64,000 bases of DNA from Luteolibacter luteus. Lineage in GTDB: Bacteria; Verrucomicrobiota; Verrucomicrobiia; Verrucomicrobiales; Akkermansiaceae. This document shows, one piece after another, positions 3,269-40,717 of this stretch. The stretch covers positions 4,216,001 through 4,280,000 of the forward strand of contig NZ_CP051774.1 in the NCBI RefSeq assembly GCF_012913485.1, given 5' to 3'. Position 1 is the stretch's first letter, and each line of letters starts with the position of its first letter. The position numbers and the translations under genes are program-made. Below the pieces are notes generated by a model, which was given only the letters and a program-made list of their open reading frames with translations, searched no databases and was not told the origin of the DNA.

Positions 3269-4846
3269 CTACTCCTTCCGGGTCGGGACATCCCTGAGTT
3301 CTGCCTCGGCTTCAAGGGCCTGAACCAAGCCCTGCATCACGAGGAGGTTGGAGTTCATTTTGGCCTCCAGCTCATCCAAGGAGGTCGGTTCCAAGTGGGT
3401 GAAGCCGGATTTTCGCCGGATCCGTGTGGCGGTTTTCACGCCTTCGTCCAGAAGGGTGTGCTGTTCCGCGGTGTTCAGGATGGTGCGGAAGTCTTTCACG
3501 AAGAGTGGATCGAGCAGGGGATCTTGGATCGCCGGAAGGGTCAGACCCACGTAATCCGTGGCAACCGGCTCTTCGATATAGGCAACCTGCTCTCCCAAGC
3601 GGGAACGGGTGTCTAGATATTCGTTTTCGGGAATCTCGCTTTTGGAGCAGGCGTCGGATGCCAGAAGCAGCTCCATCAAGGGCGCCGGATCCGAGGCCAG
3701 TTTTTCGGCGGCACTTCTCCGCATCCCGATGCAGCGGAACATGAAGTCCGCTGCGAGCTTGTCGGCTGCCGCGAGCTGTTCTTGGGAGAGTTTGAGGTCT
3801 CCCTGCATGGCGAGGACGTTGTAGAGAGAAAGAGGTCCCTCATTGGAGATCATCAGGGTCTGGAAGATCTCTGCGGACATGCTTGCTTGCCGGATGATGG
3901 TGTCGGCCGTGGCGCGGGCCTGATTGGTACGTGGGATGCCGTAGTTCTTCTCCAGTTGCTGGATGGCCAAGCGAGCCGGGCTGAGGTTGCGGGGTCTCTG
4001 ATCCGCGGCTTGTGAAGGGCCACCCGTGGCTAGAGCGGCGGATGCGACGCTGCCAGAAGATGTCCAACCCGGTTTATCGGCAGTAGAGTGGACCAAGAGG
4101 CCGACTCCCAACAGGGCGAGCACGACAAGAGCGGCTGCGGCGTACTTCATGGATAGCAGGAGGGGTAAGAATCCAATGACCGACGTGCCGGCGAGCTTGG
4201 CTGCGTTCATCGCGCCGGTGGCGAGCGATGAAGACATCGAAATTCCGGCTTCCGCATCGGTGGCAAGGCCTGCTGCCAGTGCTGTTGCCAGCGCCGCGCT
4301 GCCGACTTGAGTGCCAAGCTTCAGCCGCAGGCGGTCCATGGCCCGGTCCACGCGCTTCTGGGCGGCTTCCACTGTGATGGAAAGGGAGGCGGCGATATCC
4401 CGCATGCTGAGTACCCGGTAGTGCCGGAGGAGGATAAGCTCTCGGTCTCCTTTCGCGAGGGAAGAGAGGGCTTCGTCCAAGGAGGCCTCGAGGTTCTTCC
4501 ACAGAGCGAGCGGGGAATCCGTGGAAGAGCTTTCGAGATGATACCTTAGCCGTTCGCGTTTCCTGCATTCCCGCTCGCGGTGGTTCATCAGGTTCTTGGA
4601 GTTCAGGATCGCGGTAACGTGGAGCCATCCGGCCAAGGAATCGCGGGTCGAGAGAGAGCCAGCTTTCCGGGCCAAGGTGATGAAGGTCATTTGGGATGCC
4701 TCGGAGGCGAGTTGCCTGTCGCCACAGGTCCTCAACGCGGCCTTGTAAACGAGGCCGGCGTAGCGCTCCACGAGGGTTCGGAAGGCTGTTTCGGATTCGT
4801 GGATCTGCCATTGGCGGAGCAGATCGGCATCGGAGGATTCGGGCAT
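3269..4846 (-). CDS. ECF-type RNA polymerase sigma factor with a membrane-anchored C-terminal extension
   Basis: Alternative sigma-70 family factor of 525 residues. Region 2 spans roughly residues 20-90 (AFRTLVERYAGLVYKAALRT, then ASQMTFITLARKA) and region 4 roughly 120-175 (SLDEALSSLAKGDRELILLR, IAASLSITVEAAQKRVDRAM). After an Ala-rich linker comes a hydrophobic segment at about 222-253 and a further 270-residue tail with no family I recognise. Stand-alone ECF factors are about 180-200 residues, so the extension is an extra output or sensory part that probably tethers the factor to the membrane. The start at 4846 excludes a long upstream extension that would run through purU on the other strand. 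No separate anti-sigma gene is adjacent, so regulation may be built into the protein. Confidence 0.85.
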   Translation of the reverse strand: MPESSDADLLRQWQIHESETAFRTLVERYAGLVYKAALRTCGDRQLASEASQMTFITLARKAGSLSTRDSLAGWLHVTAILNSKNLMNHRERECRKRERLRYHLESSSTDSPLALWKNLEASLDEALSSLAKGDRELILLRHYRVLSMRDIAASLSITVEAAQKRVDRAMDRLRLKLGTQVGSAALATALAAGLATDAEAGISMSSSLATGAMNAAKLAGTSVIGFLPLLLSMKYAAAALVVLALLGVGLLVHSTADKPGWTSSGSVASAALATGGPSQAADQRPRNLSPARLAIQQLEKNYGIPRTNQARATADTIIRQASMSAEIFQTLMISNEGPLSLYNVLAMQGDLKLSQEQLAAADKLAADFMFRCIGMRRSAAEKLASDPAPLMELLLASDACSKSEIPENEYLDTRSRLGEQVAYIEEPVATDYVGLTLPAIQDPLLDPLFVKDFRTILNTAEQHTLLDEGVKTATRIRRKSGFTHLEPTSLDELEAKMNSNLLVMQGLVQALEAEAELRDVPTRKE

Positions 4847-35077: not shown

Positions 35078-38000
35078 TCAGGGTTGGTCCTCGATCCGGA
35101 TGAAGTGACTGGCTCCGGAGACGATCGGGATCGTGGTGGTGCCGTTGCCCGAGGCATCGGTGGTCACGGTGCCGTGGTCTTCGGTGAAGCCGCTGCTCAA
35201 GTTTGCGGAACCGCGCACCAGGTAGGTTGTCGAAGGCGCACCGCTGAAGTTCACGACGAGGTCGCTTCCCTGGATGATGCTGGAGCGGACGTTCAGGGAC
35301 GAAGCGACGGTGATGGTGATCGTCCGTGTGAAGGTGCCGCCGGGGCCGCTGAAGGTGATGGTGTAGGTCGTGGTGACACTGAGATTCAGCGGGATGATCG
35401 CATTGCCATTCACCAACGGGACGTTGCCGATGCCGTGGTCGACGCTCACCGAGGTGACATCCGGTCCCACCTTGATCGTGAGATCCGTGGAGCCGCCTGA
35501 ATTGATGGTGGCCTGCGCGCTGCTGAGCTGGATCACGCCCGATGTCTGCTGCCACCATGCCTCACGGTGAGCAGGGATGCGGGAATCATTCGTGGCGGGA
35601 TTCAGATCCGGGTCATCAAGAAGGGTGGGGTAGATGGCAACTTCATCAATCTCGCCGCGCCAGAGATCGGCAGTGAGCGTTTTCTGGGCTCCGATGACCC
35701 AGTCTCCCGAGGAGGCTTCGAAGACAAAGTTTGGATCGAAGGTGCTGCCGTCCGGGTTGGTGCCGTCCTTGGAGGATCCGATGAGCTGGCCATCGAGATA
35801 CCAGCGGACTTCCGTGTTCAGCGCATCCACGACGATCACGAGGTGGGCCCAGGTCTCTGCGGCCACGTTCACGTCCGCATCTTTCCGGACACCTTGGCCC
35901 AGATAGGTTCGCGGCGTGCCGTTGGCGTCGGAGAGGGAGAGCAGCACCCGCCCGGTGCCTTCGTTGTCCCGCTGGCTGACGATGGCGCGGTTTGCGGTGT
36001 TAAGTGCGGCATCGCGGCGGACCACGCTTTCGATGGTGAAGCCGGGATCGAGTTGGCCGGGATTGAGGATCAGGTTGGTAACCACTCCGCCATTTGCATC
36101 GAGGGTAATTGCTCCATCGACCACACCCGTGGCACCAGAGACGGGAGTTCCGGTAGGGCTGCCATTGTGCGGTGCCGTGTTGTCAGCCGAGTCGACGAAG
36201 ATCTCGGTGCCGGCGGGTTCGTTGAAGCGGAACCATGCGATGGGTGCATCGGCGCGAACGGCTGTGGAGAACTCATTTTCGGCATAGAGGGACTTGGTGG
36301 AGTCCGTCGTGCCGGTGCTATTCGTGGCGCTCAGGGTGAAGGTGGTCGCGCTGCCCGCATCGACATCGGCGAAGCCTTGCAGGGTGCTGCCGGTGTGCAG
36401 TTCGGTGGTGCCGGCCTTGATGCTGATGGTGGTTGGATTGGCGGCTTCACCTTCGGTGACCTTCCAGTGCAGGCGCACCTGGCCCGGCGTGCCGAGCTTC
36501 GTGACCTCGAAGCCTTTCACGACGGGTGCCTGATATTGGAGGGCGGTGACAGTGACGCTGCGGGTGACGCTTCCGCCCGGGCCGGTGGCGGTGACTTGAT
36601 AGGTCGTCGTGGCGGCGGGATTCACCGTGATGCTGGCGGTGCCGTTCGCGAGCGGCACGGTGCCGACGCCATTGTCGATACTCACCGAGGTGATGTCCGC
36701 GCCGACGTTGGCGATGAGATCAACCGCATCTCCGGAATTCACGACAGTCTTCGAAGCGGCGAAGCCGAGCAGGCCGCTCGTCTGGCTCCACCAGGCATTG
36801 CGGTGTGCGGGAATGCGTGAATCGGCCTTGTCGTTGTCGGCATTCGGATCGTCCAGAAGGCGGTCGTAGACAGCGATGTCGTCGATCTTGCCTTTCCAGA
36901 AGTTTCCGCTGAGAGCCTTTCCAAGCCCGATGATCCATTCTCCGGCCGCGGCTTCCAGGGTGATATTGGGATCGAAGGTTGTTCCGTCAGGGTTCAGTCC
37001 GTCGGCGCTGCTTCCTGACAAGACTCCATCCAGATAGAAGCGGAGTTCGTGATGTGCTGCATCCGCCACCACGGCGATGTGAGCCCAGCGCTCGTCGTCC
37101 AGTTTCGCGTCCGCGATCTTGTTGGTGCCGCCGCTGATGTCGGTCAGCACTTTGCCATCGGCGGCGGATGCGAGGAGGACGCGGCCGGTGCTGCCGCGCT
37201 GGGCGATCACCACGGGATTTGCGCCGGATGCTCCGGTTGCCCGCTGGACCACCGCTTCCACCGTGAAGCCGCTGAGCAGGGTTCCGGGATCGAGGATGGT
37301 ATTGCTGATGATGCCACTGCTGCCATCGAAGAGTGCGGCTCCATCGCCGAAGCCGGTGCTGCCGCTAACAGGTTGGCCGTAGATGCGGCCATTGTGAGGA
37401 GTGCCGTTTTCCGCGGAGTCCGCGATGAGCTGCGAGCCGGTGGAATCGTTGAAGCGGAACCAAGCGACGGGTGAATCCGCACGCACCTCTGCGGAGAAGG
37501 CTGTTTCAGCGGAGAGGATGGCAGGCTTGTTTGTGGTGCCCGTGGCATTGGTCGCGGCGATGCTGAAGCTGCTCGTGCCGCTGGTGGTCACATCGGCGAA
37601 GCCTTCCAAGGTAGATGGCGTGTGGACGATTACATCGCCTTCCTTGATCACCAGGGATGTGGGGTCGGGCACACCGCCTTCCGTCACGCGCCAATGGAAG
37701 CGGACCTTGCCGCTGGAAGGGAGGCTGGTTGCCTCGAAACCAAGTACGGCGGGAGCCGTAGCAACCGGCGGTGTCACGGCGGCGGCGTTCCAGAACAGGG
37801 CGCGGCTGACGCTGCCTTCAAGGCTGAACGCATTGTGGACATCGAAGGGGGCTCCGAGGACATTGGAGGCATTGCTGCCGGCGAGGCCGCCCACTGAACC
37901 GGCGGTGGGCAAGGTTTTCACGGACAGCGTGTCGTTGCCGGACCAATTCGACGGGGTTCCGGAAATAACGAAGGAGGAGGTGATCACGCTGCCGCCGTCC

Positions 38001-38521
38001 GGCTGGACTTTCAGCTCCAGCGTGCCCTGGTGATTCCAGGATGCGGAGAACGAGTAGGCGGTTCCTGCGCTAAGCTTTCCGATCGAGCTCTGCACCGCGA
38101 TCGCCGGGAGGGAGGTGTCATTGAGCGAGGCAGGGATGGTGATGTCGTTCGAGCCTTGCTTGGAAAGCAGGGTGGGCACGCCATCGACTAGATAGAGGCC
38201 GATCCCGTTCGAGGTGCCCCCGAGTTCGATCAGCAGTACGACGCGTGCCTCCGCAGGTGTGGCGCGCTCCAAGTCGGCGGAGGTGGGAATGAACGCGATG
38301 TTGAAGGTGGCGCCGAGGAGGTGTTCCGGGTCACCGAGGATCGGGATGCCGGATTGGCTGCCAGCAGTGCCGCCGTCATTGGCGATGCCCTTGATATCGC
38401 TGTCGTAGAGGGCGGTTTCCGGACCCAGTGCCGGAAGGATTGCGGCATGGGCGGTATGAGCGCCCAAGGTGGCGGCGAGGGCGAGTAGCTGGAAGCGGCG
38501 TGTTGTGGGGAAAGACTGCAT
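35078..38521 (-). CDS. Large secreted LamG-domain protein with an internal duplication
   Basis: A 1147-residue exported protein with a signal peptide (MQSFPTTRRFQLLALAATLG, cleavage after HTAHA). Residues 30-255 form a unique beta-rich region. Two similar modules follow, about 257-661 and 665-1060, with a 409-residue period. Each consists of an Ig/FN3-like domain (GFEATSLPSSGKVRFHWRVT; GFEVTKLGTPGQVRLHWKVT), a LamG jelly-roll (PVAWFRFNDSTGS; PIAWFRFNEPAGT) and a second Ig-like repeat. The last 85 residues have the APSTTYLVRGSANL pattern of short C-terminal domains in verrucomicrobial surface proteins. It is the first gene of the minus-strand block and is probably a carbohydrate-binding adhesin. 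Confidence 0.8.
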   Translation of the reverse strand: MQSFPTTRRFQLLALAATLGAHTAHAAILPALGPETALYDSDIKGIANDGGTAGSQSGIPILGDPEHLLGATFNIAFIPTSADLERATPAEARVVLLIELGGTSNGIGLYLVDGVPTLLSKQGSNDITIPASLNDTSLPAIAVQSSIGKLSAGTAYSFSASWNHQGTLELKVQPDGGSVITSSFVISGTPSNWSGNDTLSVKTLPTAGSVGGLAGSNASNVLGAPFDVHNAFSLEGSVSRALFWNAAAVTPPVATAPAVLGFEATSLPSSGKVRFHWRVTEGGVPDPTSLVIKEGDVIVHTPSTLEGFADVTTSGTSSFSIAATNATGTTNKPAILSAETAFSAEVRADSPVAWFRFNDSTGSQLIADSAENGTPHNGRIYGQPVSGSTGFGDGAALFDGSSGIISNTILDPGTLLSGFTVEAVVQRATGASGANPVVIAQRGSTGRVLLASAADGKVLTDISGGTNKIADAKLDDERWAHIAVVADAAHHELRFYLDGVLSGSSADGLNPDGTTFDPNITLEAAAGEWIIGLGKALSGNFWKGKIDDIAVYDRLLDDPNADNDKADSRIPAHRNAWWSQTSGLLGFAASKTVVNSGDAVDLIANVGADITSVSIDNGVGTVPLANGTASITVNPAATTTYQVTATGPGGSVTRSVTVTALQYQAPVVKGFEVTKLGTPGQVRLHWKVTEGEAANPTTISIKAGTTELHTGSTLQGFADVDAGSATTFTLSATNSTGTTDSTKSLYAENEFSTAVRADAPIAWFRFNEPAGTEIFVDSADNTAPHNGSPTGTPVSGATGVVDGAITLDANGGVVTNLILNPGQLDPGFTIESVVRRDAALNTANRAIVSQRDNEGTGRVLLSLSDANGTPRTYLGQGVRKDADVNVAAETWAHLVIVVDALNTEVRWYLDGQLIGSSKDGTNPDGSTFDPNFVFEASSGDWVIGAQKTLTADLWRGEIDEVAIYPTLLDDPDLNPATNDSRIPAHREAWWQQTSGVIQLSSAQATINSGGSTDLTIKVGPDVTSVSVDHGIGNVPLVNGNAIIPLNLSVTTTYTITFSGPGGTFTRTITITVASSLNVRSSIIQGSDLVVNFSGAPSTTYLVRGSANLSSGFTEDHGTVTTDASGNGTTTIPIVSGASHFIRIEDQP

Positions 38522-38547
38522 GGGAACGATCGGTGACGGCGGGGAAA

Positions 38548-38706
38548 TCAGTGGGGCTTGCGGATGCGCAGCGCAGGCGTCTCCAAGGGACGCTGGAGGG
38601 TGCGGTTCAAAAGGGAGTCAGGCCGGGCTCCGGCGAGCTGCCGACCGCTCAAAGAGCGGCGGGTTGCCTCGCCGGGAGCGATCAAGTGAAGTTTGTAAAG
38701 TAACAT
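38548..38706 (-). other. Possible 52-codon leader ORF overlapping a long hairpin, upstream of the LamG gene
   Basis: On the minus strand an ATG at 38706 opens a 52-codon frame (MLLYKLHLIAPGEATRR..., ending LRIRKPH) that stops at 38548, 26 bases before the LamG start. It is too short to be certain. Inside it, GCTCCGGCGAG (38627-38637) pairs with CTCGCCGGGAGC (38668-38679) with one bulged G, enclosing a second hairpin (CCGCTC/GAGCGG, loop AAA). GTAAAGT occurs at 38695 and 38726, 31 bases apart. The element could be a leader peptide, a structured 5' UTR or a regulatory site. Confidence 0.3.
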
Positions 38707-38812
38707 GGTAAGGTATCGATTGAGGGTAAAGTCTCCTCCGGAGTATGATTTGATGAAGGGTCAAAGCCCTTCTGTCCAAGAGGCCGTGTCGACAGCGAGT
38801 GGCTGGAAGGCG

Positions 38813-39023
38813 CCACGGCGGGCTCGGGAAAACCCATTATCCCGCGCCCGCCGTGGTCTGTTTGGTGCAGTCAGCCGGTGAAACCCAAGACACCGGCAAC
38901 CGCAGATCCGTCCGTTAACCACCGGAAAGCTGCGAGAGGTCGGCCCGCATCGACTCGCGGAAAATCACCGCGTCGATGCACTCAGGCCGACACCAGGTCG
39001 TACAACACATCGCAAGGGCGATG
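38813..39023. other. Hairpin-rich segment, candidate structured non-coding RNA
   Basis: At least four strong stems lie within 211 bases. H1: 38813-38856, 16 bp with one mismatch (CCACGGCGGGC/GCCCGCCGTGG plus CGGG/CCCG). H2: 38874-38897, 7 bp perfect, 10-base loop. H4: 38939-38991, coaxial GTCGGCC, CATCGA and CGCGG arms. H5: 39008-39023, CATCGC/GCGATG with loop AAGG. The loops of H1 and H2 share AAACCCA on the plus strand. No convincing ORF covers it. The strand of any transcript is unknown. Confidence 0.45.
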
Positions 39024-39412
39024 CGGCGACGGGTGTAGCGAGCGATTGGAAAAAGATTCATCGGATGCAGGAGACGGTTTCGATTCGCCACCACGGTCGG
39101 GGAGCTGTCCCGTCCCGATTTGTGGCACCATGTCAACTTTGCTCCCCTGCCCGGGGTCGCCGGATCGCTCGGTGAGGTCCTTCCGGACCCTCTCTGCGGC
39201 TGACGGGCGGACTAATGCCTATGTGATGGTGGGAATTCAAGAAGAAATTTCTCGCGACTTTTCCGGAGGACTGGGTTTTGCCTGTCTGAAAGCGGTGGAA
39301 GCCCTTAGGGCTGTGTCGGCTCTGTCGTTGTCTCCTCCTCGAAGGCGGGAGGTATTTTGTTACGAAGCCTGCCTTGTGTCGCGATGCCGAGTCCCTATCT
39401 CAGGTCCCGTCA
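39024..39412. other. Remainder of the gene-free interval before chrA
   Basis: No gene, clear promoter or terminator could be supported here. Open frames cross it on both strands, but none has a convincing start, family motif or composition like the neighbours. It is the 5' flank of the chromate transporter. Confidence 0.4.
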
Positions 39413-40717
39413 ATGAACGAAAACAGTCCTCCTCCCGCACCCAGCTTTCCGGAGGCACTCCGCTTTTGGGTCAAGCTGGGCTGGATCAGCTTCGGAGGAC
39501 CGGCTGGCCAGATCGCGATCATGCACAAGGAACTCGTCGAGCGTCGCCGCTGGATGAGCGAGGACCACTTCCTGCACGCGCTGAATTTTTGCATGCTGTT
39601 GCCGGGCCCGGAGGCCCAGCAGCTCGCGACCTATCTGGGCTGGCGCTTGCATGGCGCGCGCGGAGGAATCGCAGCCGGAGCGCTATTCGTCTTGCCTTCG
39701 ATCTTCATCCTGTGGGGGCTGAGCTGGCTCTATATGGCGGGAGGCGAGGTGAAGTGGATCCAAGGAATCTTCTACGGCCTTATCCCGGTGGTGATCGCCA
39801 TCGTGGCGGCCGCGGTGAAGCGGATTGGTTCGAAGGCGTTGAAGACTCCGGCGCTGTGGGGACTGGCTATCGCTGCCTTCATCGCGATCTTCTTTTTCAA
39901 GATCTCCTTCGTGGTGATCATCATTGTCGCTGCCTTGATCGGGTTTCTGGGCAGCAAGTGTTTTCCAAAGCAATTCCCTGCAGGGAAAGGTCACGGCAAA
40001 GCCGAGGTGGGGGATGAGCCCTTCGTTGCTCTTCCGCCGGCTCCGCGCGCGAGTTGGGCGCGGACCTTCATGGTGTCTGCTCTTTGTCTGGTGCTGTGGT
40101 GGGTGCCGGTGCTGGCCTGCGGGTTTCTGCTGGGGTGGCGGGATGTCCATTTCCAACAGGGAATTTTCTTCAGCAAGGCAGCTCTCGTGACCATCGGCGG
40201 CGCCTATGCGGTGCTACCCTATGTCGCCCAGATGGCCGTGGACCACTTTGGCTGGCTTAGCCAGCGGCAGATGATGGCGGGACTGGGGCTCGCTGAAACG
40301 ACCCCGGGACCCTTGATCATGGTGCTGCAATTTGTCGGCTTCGTGGCGGCTTGGCAGAACCCTGGAGATCTTCCCCCTTTGCTGGCTGCCACGCTGGGTG
40401 CCCTAATCACGACTTGGGTGACTTTCCTGCCTTGTTTCCTCTTCGTCTTTCTCGGCGCACCTCATGTGGAAAGCCTCCGCGAGCGTCCCGGGATTTCCAC
40501 CGCACTGACGGCGGTGACTGCGGCGGTGGTGGGTGTTATTCTCAATCTCGCGATTTGGCTCGCTTGGCATGCGTTGAAGCCGGAGAGCGGCGGCTTTGAT
40601 TTCTTCGTGGCCGTCGGCGCGATCGCCGCGTGGGTGGCGATGGAGCGATTCAAGGTGGGGGTTGTCCCGACCCTTCTGAGTGCGGCCTTGCTAGGGATGC
40701 TGTGGATTCACATTTGA
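39413..40717 (+). CDS. chrA: Chromate efflux transporter, CHR family (long, two-domain form)
   Basis: Polytopic membrane protein of 434 residues that expels chromate. The ATG at 39413 precedes the first CHR domain (FPEALRFWVKLGWISFGGPA, then NFCMLLPGPEAQQLATYLGW). The second CHR half has SKAALVTIGGAYAVLPYVAQ and AETTPGPLIMVLQFVGFVAA. The repeated FGG and PGP motifs are the family signature, and the length matches the long-chain form. About ten membrane segments are apparent. It stands alone, with no ChrB-like regulator adjacent. Some CHR proteins have other anion substrates. Confidence 0.9.
   Translation: MNENSPPPAPSFPEALRFWVKLGWISFGGPAGQIAIMHKELVERRRWMSEDHFLHALNFCMLLPGPEAQQLATYLGWRLHGARGGIAAGALFVLPSIFILWGLSWLYMAGGEVKWIQGIFYGLIPVVIAIVAAAVKRIGSKALKTPALWGLAIAAFIAIFFFKISFVVIIIVAALIGFLGSKCFPKQFPAGKGHGKAEVGDEPFVALPPAPRASWARTFMVSALCLVLWWVPVLACGFLLGWRDVHFQQGIFFSKAALVTIGGAYAVLPYVAQMAVDHFGWLSQRQMMAGLGLAETTPGPLIMVLQFVGFVAAWQNPGDLPPLLAATLGALITTWVTFLPCFLFVFLGAPHVESLRERPGISTALTAVTAAVVGVILNLAIWLAWHALKPESGGFDFFVAVGAIAAWVAMERFKVGVVPTLLSAALLGMLWIHI

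Follow-up and report, generated by a model that had tools for sequence, protein, structure and literature searches.

The window analysed in the present study is a stretch of 64,000 nucleotides, positions 4216001-4280000 of the single 6.41-Mb contig of the Luteolibacter luteus genome (G000). On its minus strand, a gene encoding a protein with a Laminin_G_3 (lectin-like) domain (35078..38521) is preceded by a small ORF of 52 aa (MLLYKLHL.., 38548..38706, minus strand), which has no Pfam match and stands between this gene and the hairpins described below. The ORF is separate from the gene in the window and seemingly continuous with the gene start at two related loci (L062 and L067).

The hairpin cluster and module A

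A dense hairpin cluster had been described here in a first-pass annotation, and the hairpins were found at that place. The stem given as 16 bp is part of an inverted repeat with 20 nt arms that are 90% complementary (38813-38856), the 7-bp stem belongs to a shorter hairpin with the stem CCGGTG/CACCGG, the three-arm hairpin appears as a long nested hairpin (about 38938-38994), and the tetraloop hairpin is CATCGC-AAGG-GCGATG (39008-39023); the AAACCCA said to be repeated was seen in the loop of the long stem and in that of the shorter hairpin. The segment 38800-39050 folds better than its dinucleotide shuffles, with z = -6.30 on the plus strand (none of 200 shuffles as good) and z = -3.83 on the minus strand (again no shuffle as good). 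Comparison with homologues places the conserved part at 38811-38931 of the minus strand, where a short 5' module is followed by two hairpins, both loops reading UGGGUUU. Hairpin 1 (38813..38856, minus strand) has a long GC-rich stem (CCACGGCGGGC..) and the loop AUAAUGGGUUUU, hairpin 2 (38866..38904, minus strand) presents the loop UCUUGGGUUU, and the 5' module AGCTTTCCGGTGGTTAACGGACGGATC (38905..38931, minus strand) matches a stretch that, in the sigma-54 classes described below, holds the -12 box and the probable start. In an alignment of eight loci of the same class as the window copy (class B), the stretch with the third and fourth hairpins was not conserved, and additional conserved segments were found outside the stretch first annotated, at 39066-39241. 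The claim of a new non-coding RNA stands in that the family is conserved and uncatalogued, and has been narrowed to hairpins 1 and 2, on the minus strand. Hairpin 1 was also considered as a terminator in the window and was rejected, as no U tract follows the stem on the minus strand.

In class B loci, the order of elements is a sigma-70-like promoter, module A and the two loop hairpins. Module A (39066..39150, minus strand) is a second structured segment, an extended imperfect hairpin (GCAGGGGAGC..CTCCTGCA) whose internal loops are conserved and in which 6 of 25 pairs have changed on both sides (8 cells versus 2.1 in shuffles, 0/500 as high). The sigma-70-like promoter, recognized in the alignments at 39212..39241 (minus strand), comprises CTTGAA and, with 17 nt counted after TTGAAT, CATTAG; it lies about 280 bases upstream of the two-hairpin unit, its CATTAG is kept in 8 of 10 aligned loci, and the pair of boxes was not reported by a stricter consensus scan. 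Module A has also been observed where the loop hairpins are missing, at 4783321 of the window's genome and in another genome (G015), and with its own putative promoter, as at 39066-39241 of the window (minus strand), in L136 and L132. A coding reading of the ORF at 38915-39136 (minus strand), which runs across module A, was rejected, since it has no Pfam match and homologue indels break the frames in the alignments, as judged by eye.

Conservation, genomic classes and relatives across the order

A DNA search with 38800-39050 as the query matched 12 of 57 genomes, the own genome included. Alignment A2, with twelve sequences from 8 genomes oriented so that the loop reads TGGGTT, revealed a conserved unit that opens with the 5' module and continues with hairpin 2 and then hairpin 1; TTGGGTTT in the hairpin 2 loop and TGGGTT in the hairpin 1 loop are invariant. 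Compensatory changes in homologues, proposed earlier as a check on the annotation, are present: 10 of the 33 pairs of the whole structure have changed on both sides, giving 30 such cells compared with 12.8 +/- 2.4 in shuffles (0/500 as high) and 3-12 in slid controls, while further pair types did not exceed the shuffles (28 versus 26.9, 202/500 as high). These changes are confined to hairpin 2; hairpin 1 hardly varies in A2 and so provides no evidence of covariation. A model of the two-hairpin form (R1), with 13 candidates scored per genome, so that copy numbers are lower bounds, matched 27 of 260 genomes of the family at E <= 0.01. All 18 genomes of the own genus are among them, with best matches of E 5.3e-9 or better, and 10 of these 18 had contributed no sequence to the model; the nine matching genomes outside the genus gave weak matches (best 3.4e-5). 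As minor observations, a third hairpin with a like loop (TTCATGGGTTTT) follows the two of the element in L087 (about 4152-4200), and two loci in other genera, L095 (G133) and L049 (G199), contain the 5' module GGTTAGCGGATGG without UGGGUUU loops, preceded in L049 by a sigma-54-like box.

Thirty-nine two-hairpin elements were taken with their flanks and classed by genomic context, Pfam being applied to representatives only. In class 1 (n=11), a HAD-phosphatase family gene precedes 8 of 11 elements and an RlaP-family gene lies downstream within 4 kb in 9 of 11. A Na/H-antiporter family gene precedes every element of class 3 (11/11), and a gene for a GNAT-carbon-nitrogen-hydrolase comes after in 8 of 11. 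An ankyrin-YkuD gene adjoins five of the six elements of class 4. Class B (n=8), which includes the window copy, has a gene for a lectin-domain protein downstream in 6 of 8 and different genes in the other two; three elements fall in no class. The motif TTGGCAY-N7-GCW was observed at the element start in 28 of 39, comprising all 28 elements of classes 1, 3 and 4 and none of class B (0/8) or of the unassigned elements (0/3), and occurs elsewhere in the same loci only 3 times in 622,646 positions on both strands. From its spacing and its variable middle, which are those of the sigma-54 consensus, we take this motif to be a sigma-54 promoter. RpoN is present in 357 of 386 genomes and in all 50 genera of the order. 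The window copy, like the rest of class B, has no sigma-54 box.

These contexts bear on one alternative, namely that the window copy is a cis-acting leader of the lectin-domain gene, riboswitch-like, with module A as the sensor and the hairpins as the output. Such a leader would fit the recurrence of this gene family downstream in 6 of the 8 loci of class B, the conservation of the promoter, and the presence of a further structured module whose internal loops are conserved. However, the remaining two class B elements precede different genes, the association does not extend to the other classes, module A also exists without the loop hairpins, and the same loop is found on free-standing relatives. 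A terminator-like site near hairpin 1 was observed in 1 of 8 class B loci compared with 22 of 300 random windows (class 1, 10/11; class 3, 3/11; class 4, 2/6; unassigned, 0/3). As an explanation of the elements, we regard a cis-acting leader as somewhat unlikely; a leader role of the window copy is, however, compatible with a family of loop-pairing RNAs.

The weak R1 matches in other genera led to single hairpins bearing the same loop. Among 260 genomes of the family, 76 contained the pattern GGTTNNTGGGTTTTCC and 5 its reversed control, and most of the loci examined present a compact RNA, often with a sigma-54 box, a GTCGCGAC-like palindrome, a loop-bearing terminator hairpin and a T run; a few loci (e.g. 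L097, L098 and L118) lack this layout and look like chance matches. In an alignment of 22 such hairpin-terminator sequences, 8 of 20 pairs have changed on both sides, with 27 cells versus 7.4 in shuffles (0/500 as high). The corresponding model (R2), with 10 candidates scored per genome, matched 141 of 386 genomes, spread over 27 of 50 genera of the order (Verrucomicrobiales), with from 1 to at least 10 matches per genome and two clear copies in the window's genome. A sigma-54 score of at least 11 of 13 was obtained upstream of 18 of the 28 hairpin-terminator RNAs examined, compared with 2.6% of background windows, and in 17 of these 18 the box is located 64-69 bases before the loop; other relatives, L168 of the own genome among them, carry a box of the TTGAC type recognized by eye. 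Hairpins with TGGGTT in the loop numbered 59 in 383 kb, versus 8-11 for four scrambled hexamers, in a set of sequences centred on the elements. A scan of genome contigs returned 11 stretches, three of them in genomes already in the set; the other eight may be chance. Across families, no gene shared beside the RNA was recognized by eye in 20 loci, and synteny was therefore rejected as an order-wide clue to function. In the own genus, three R2 copies (L227, L229 and L230) adjoin the same gene family, which we take to be pyruvate carboxylase from the N-terminal sequence. Palindromes like GTCGCGAC or GTCGCAAGAC occur near the predicted start of many related small RNAs (L107-L126, L138-L167). Tandem hairpin-terminator copies were observed in L108, in L109 and at G175:C125 3757-4905; those of L108 and L109 (the same places as L149 and L153) have a sigma-54 box at the first copy only.

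Several copies per genome, tandem at times, together with strong palindromes, might also suggest a palindromic DNA repeat, mobile or of the REP kind, that has no function as RNA. Several results argue against such a repeat. First, promoter boxes are located at the start or at a near-fixed distance, and on the strand of the loop. Second, the paired positions show compensatory changes. Third, the elements occupy the same places across species, next to the antiporter gene in 11/11 of class 3 and the phosphatase gene in 8/11 of class 1, and the window's genome has six clear copies. A DNA repeat of this kind is, in our view, very improbable.

Comparison with known RNAs

The first-pass annotation had matched the cluster to no known RNA class and had named an Rfam scan as a check. 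The scan with Rfam 15 agrees: over the RNA of the window no model reached its gathering score, 38500-39450 gave only five sub-threshold matches (E 0.98-8.4), and 28 other loci of the family were likewise without a match over the RNA. The RNA family is likewise undescribed in the open-licence literature, as far as titles and the openings of abstracts tell. That the elements form a conserved non-coding RNA family absent from Rfam 15 is well supported.

The Hfq family PF17209 was detected in none of the 57 relatives, the window's genome included, whereas the same search was positive in 5 of 14 genomes used as controls. Multicopy small RNAs under sigma-54 control are known from enterobacteria (GlmY/GlmZ), and the Qrr RNAs of Vibrio likewise resemble classes 1, 3 and 4, as well as many hairpin-terminator relatives, in being sigma-54-driven and multicopy. 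The present RNAs differ from both in having no Rfam match, as far as those families are in Rfam, and in that a sigma-54 box precedes 28 of 39 two-hairpin elements and is absent from the window copy. Qrr RNAs use Hfq, in contrast to the lack of a detected Hfq among the relatives of this order (0/57).

The loop complement upstream of start codons

If the loops pair with messenger RNAs, the targets should carry AACCCA-like sites. Such sites were sought in 1.264 Mb of the own genome (about a fifth, window included) upstream of 973 starts, which were ATG codons called by a simple script, with signal peptides assigned by a crude rule. Strictly upstream of these starts, AACCCA was observed 34 times versus 12.9 expected and ranks third among hexamers; ACCCAA ranks 11 and AAACCC 13. 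TGATCC and CCGGTG, which rank above it, are as strongly enriched upstream of the same starts, a point against the pairing reading. When overlap with the start codon was allowed, AACCCAT occurred 20 times, a count that no other of its 140 permutations (mean 4.1) equalled, and AAACCCA 23 times compared with 6.8, a level reached by 3 of its 35 permutations, AAACCCA among them. AACCCA is the commonest of its 20 permutations (39 of 972 genes), and its genes are signal-peptide-like in 24 of 39 cases versus 375 of 972 overall (p 0.0026); for ACCCAA, the proportion is 20 of 31 (p 0.0027), both values being uncorrected for the 20 permutations, among which only these two favour signal-peptide-like genes. 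When only genes preceded by a gap of 50 bases or more were counted (n=655), 16 of 28 with AACCCA (p 0.013) and 15 of 24 with ACCCAA (p 0.005) are signal-peptide-like. In G057, which has no R1 or R2 match, AACCCA was not enriched in a small sample (2 versus 5.7 expected; 0.4 Mb, 284 starts). The 12-base complement AAACCCAAGAAA gave 52 matches in the 18 genomes of the genus, of which 39 are the loops themselves and 13 lie elsewhere, compared with 3 for the reversed pattern. These statistics, drawn from sequence, are suggestive of pairing between loops and leaders and do not prove it.

Herein, we propose, at a probability of about 0.5, that the elements are an Hfq-independent family of regulatory RNAs whose loops pair with the leaders of mRNAs for secreted proteins; transcription, loop pairing and the direction of the effect are what we infer. 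The cluster in the window would be the 3' portion of a non-coding transcript that runs leftward on the minus strand and belongs to a regulatory family spread through the order, with one or two long stems presenting the same loop as its hallmark. Most relatives would be free-standing RNAs under a sigma-54 or sigma-70-like promoter, and the window copy a longer form upstream of the gene for the lectin-domain protein. Without Hfq, the loops might pair with AACCCA just upstream of start codons, chiefly those of secreted or envelope proteins, and the pairing might alter the translation of these targets.

Alternatively, the loops may be sites for an RNA-binding protein, with the RNAs acting as sponges or loading platforms in the manner of CsrB/RsmY. 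Those sponge RNAs repeat one hairpin-loop motif, GGA. The present RNAs share with them one loop motif on several hairpins. A protein site would suit the recurrence of the same loop in both hairpins of a single RNA and in every paralogue examined, on stems that differ in sequence, and also the one element with a third such hairpin. The loop here, however, is UGGGUUU and not GGA, and the enrichment of AACCCA upstream of starts in the own genome argues for pairing. No partner protein is known, and a search by regular expression for RRM-type motifs returned none in the examined loci, which cover a small part of any genome. We judge a protein site unlikely. The FopS RNAs of Bacteroides thetaiotaomicron are multicopy paralogous sRNAs that bind near the start codons of envelope-protein mRNAs, with the RRM protein RbpB as the partner (PMC11697453). 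The present family is similar in its multicopy paralogous RNAs and may be so in its putative binding near start codons, and differs in that the shared part is a hairpin loop and that no partner such as RbpB is known.

The family was found in over a third of the sampled genomes of one order, and a table in a 2022 review gives 8 small-RNA families for the Planctomycetes-Verrucomicrobia-Chlamydiae group as a whole (PMC9029176). The present elements would add a further family, in bacteria where no Hfq has been detected, along with a directly testable target code; the question then arises how small RNAs in many copies act without the usual chaperone. In a broader and more tentative form, one loop code, with UUGGGUU on the RNA side and AACCCA on that of the mRNA leaders, might enable many paralogous RNAs, switched by sigma-54 or sigma-70, to control the secreted and envelope proteome jointly and independently of Hfq; this code would drift between families (GGG to GGGGG), and the targets would be expected to follow. 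The loop reads UUnnUGGGUUU in the window's genus and in several related genera, and mostly UUAUGGGGGUUU or similar in the order's other families. The leader motif was also counted in loci from further genomes, where the starts are too few and too near the RNAs for the counts to be of use: AACCCA was observed 0 times versus 0.9 expected in other families, 3 versus 1.4 in g13 and 5 versus 1.9 in the genus.
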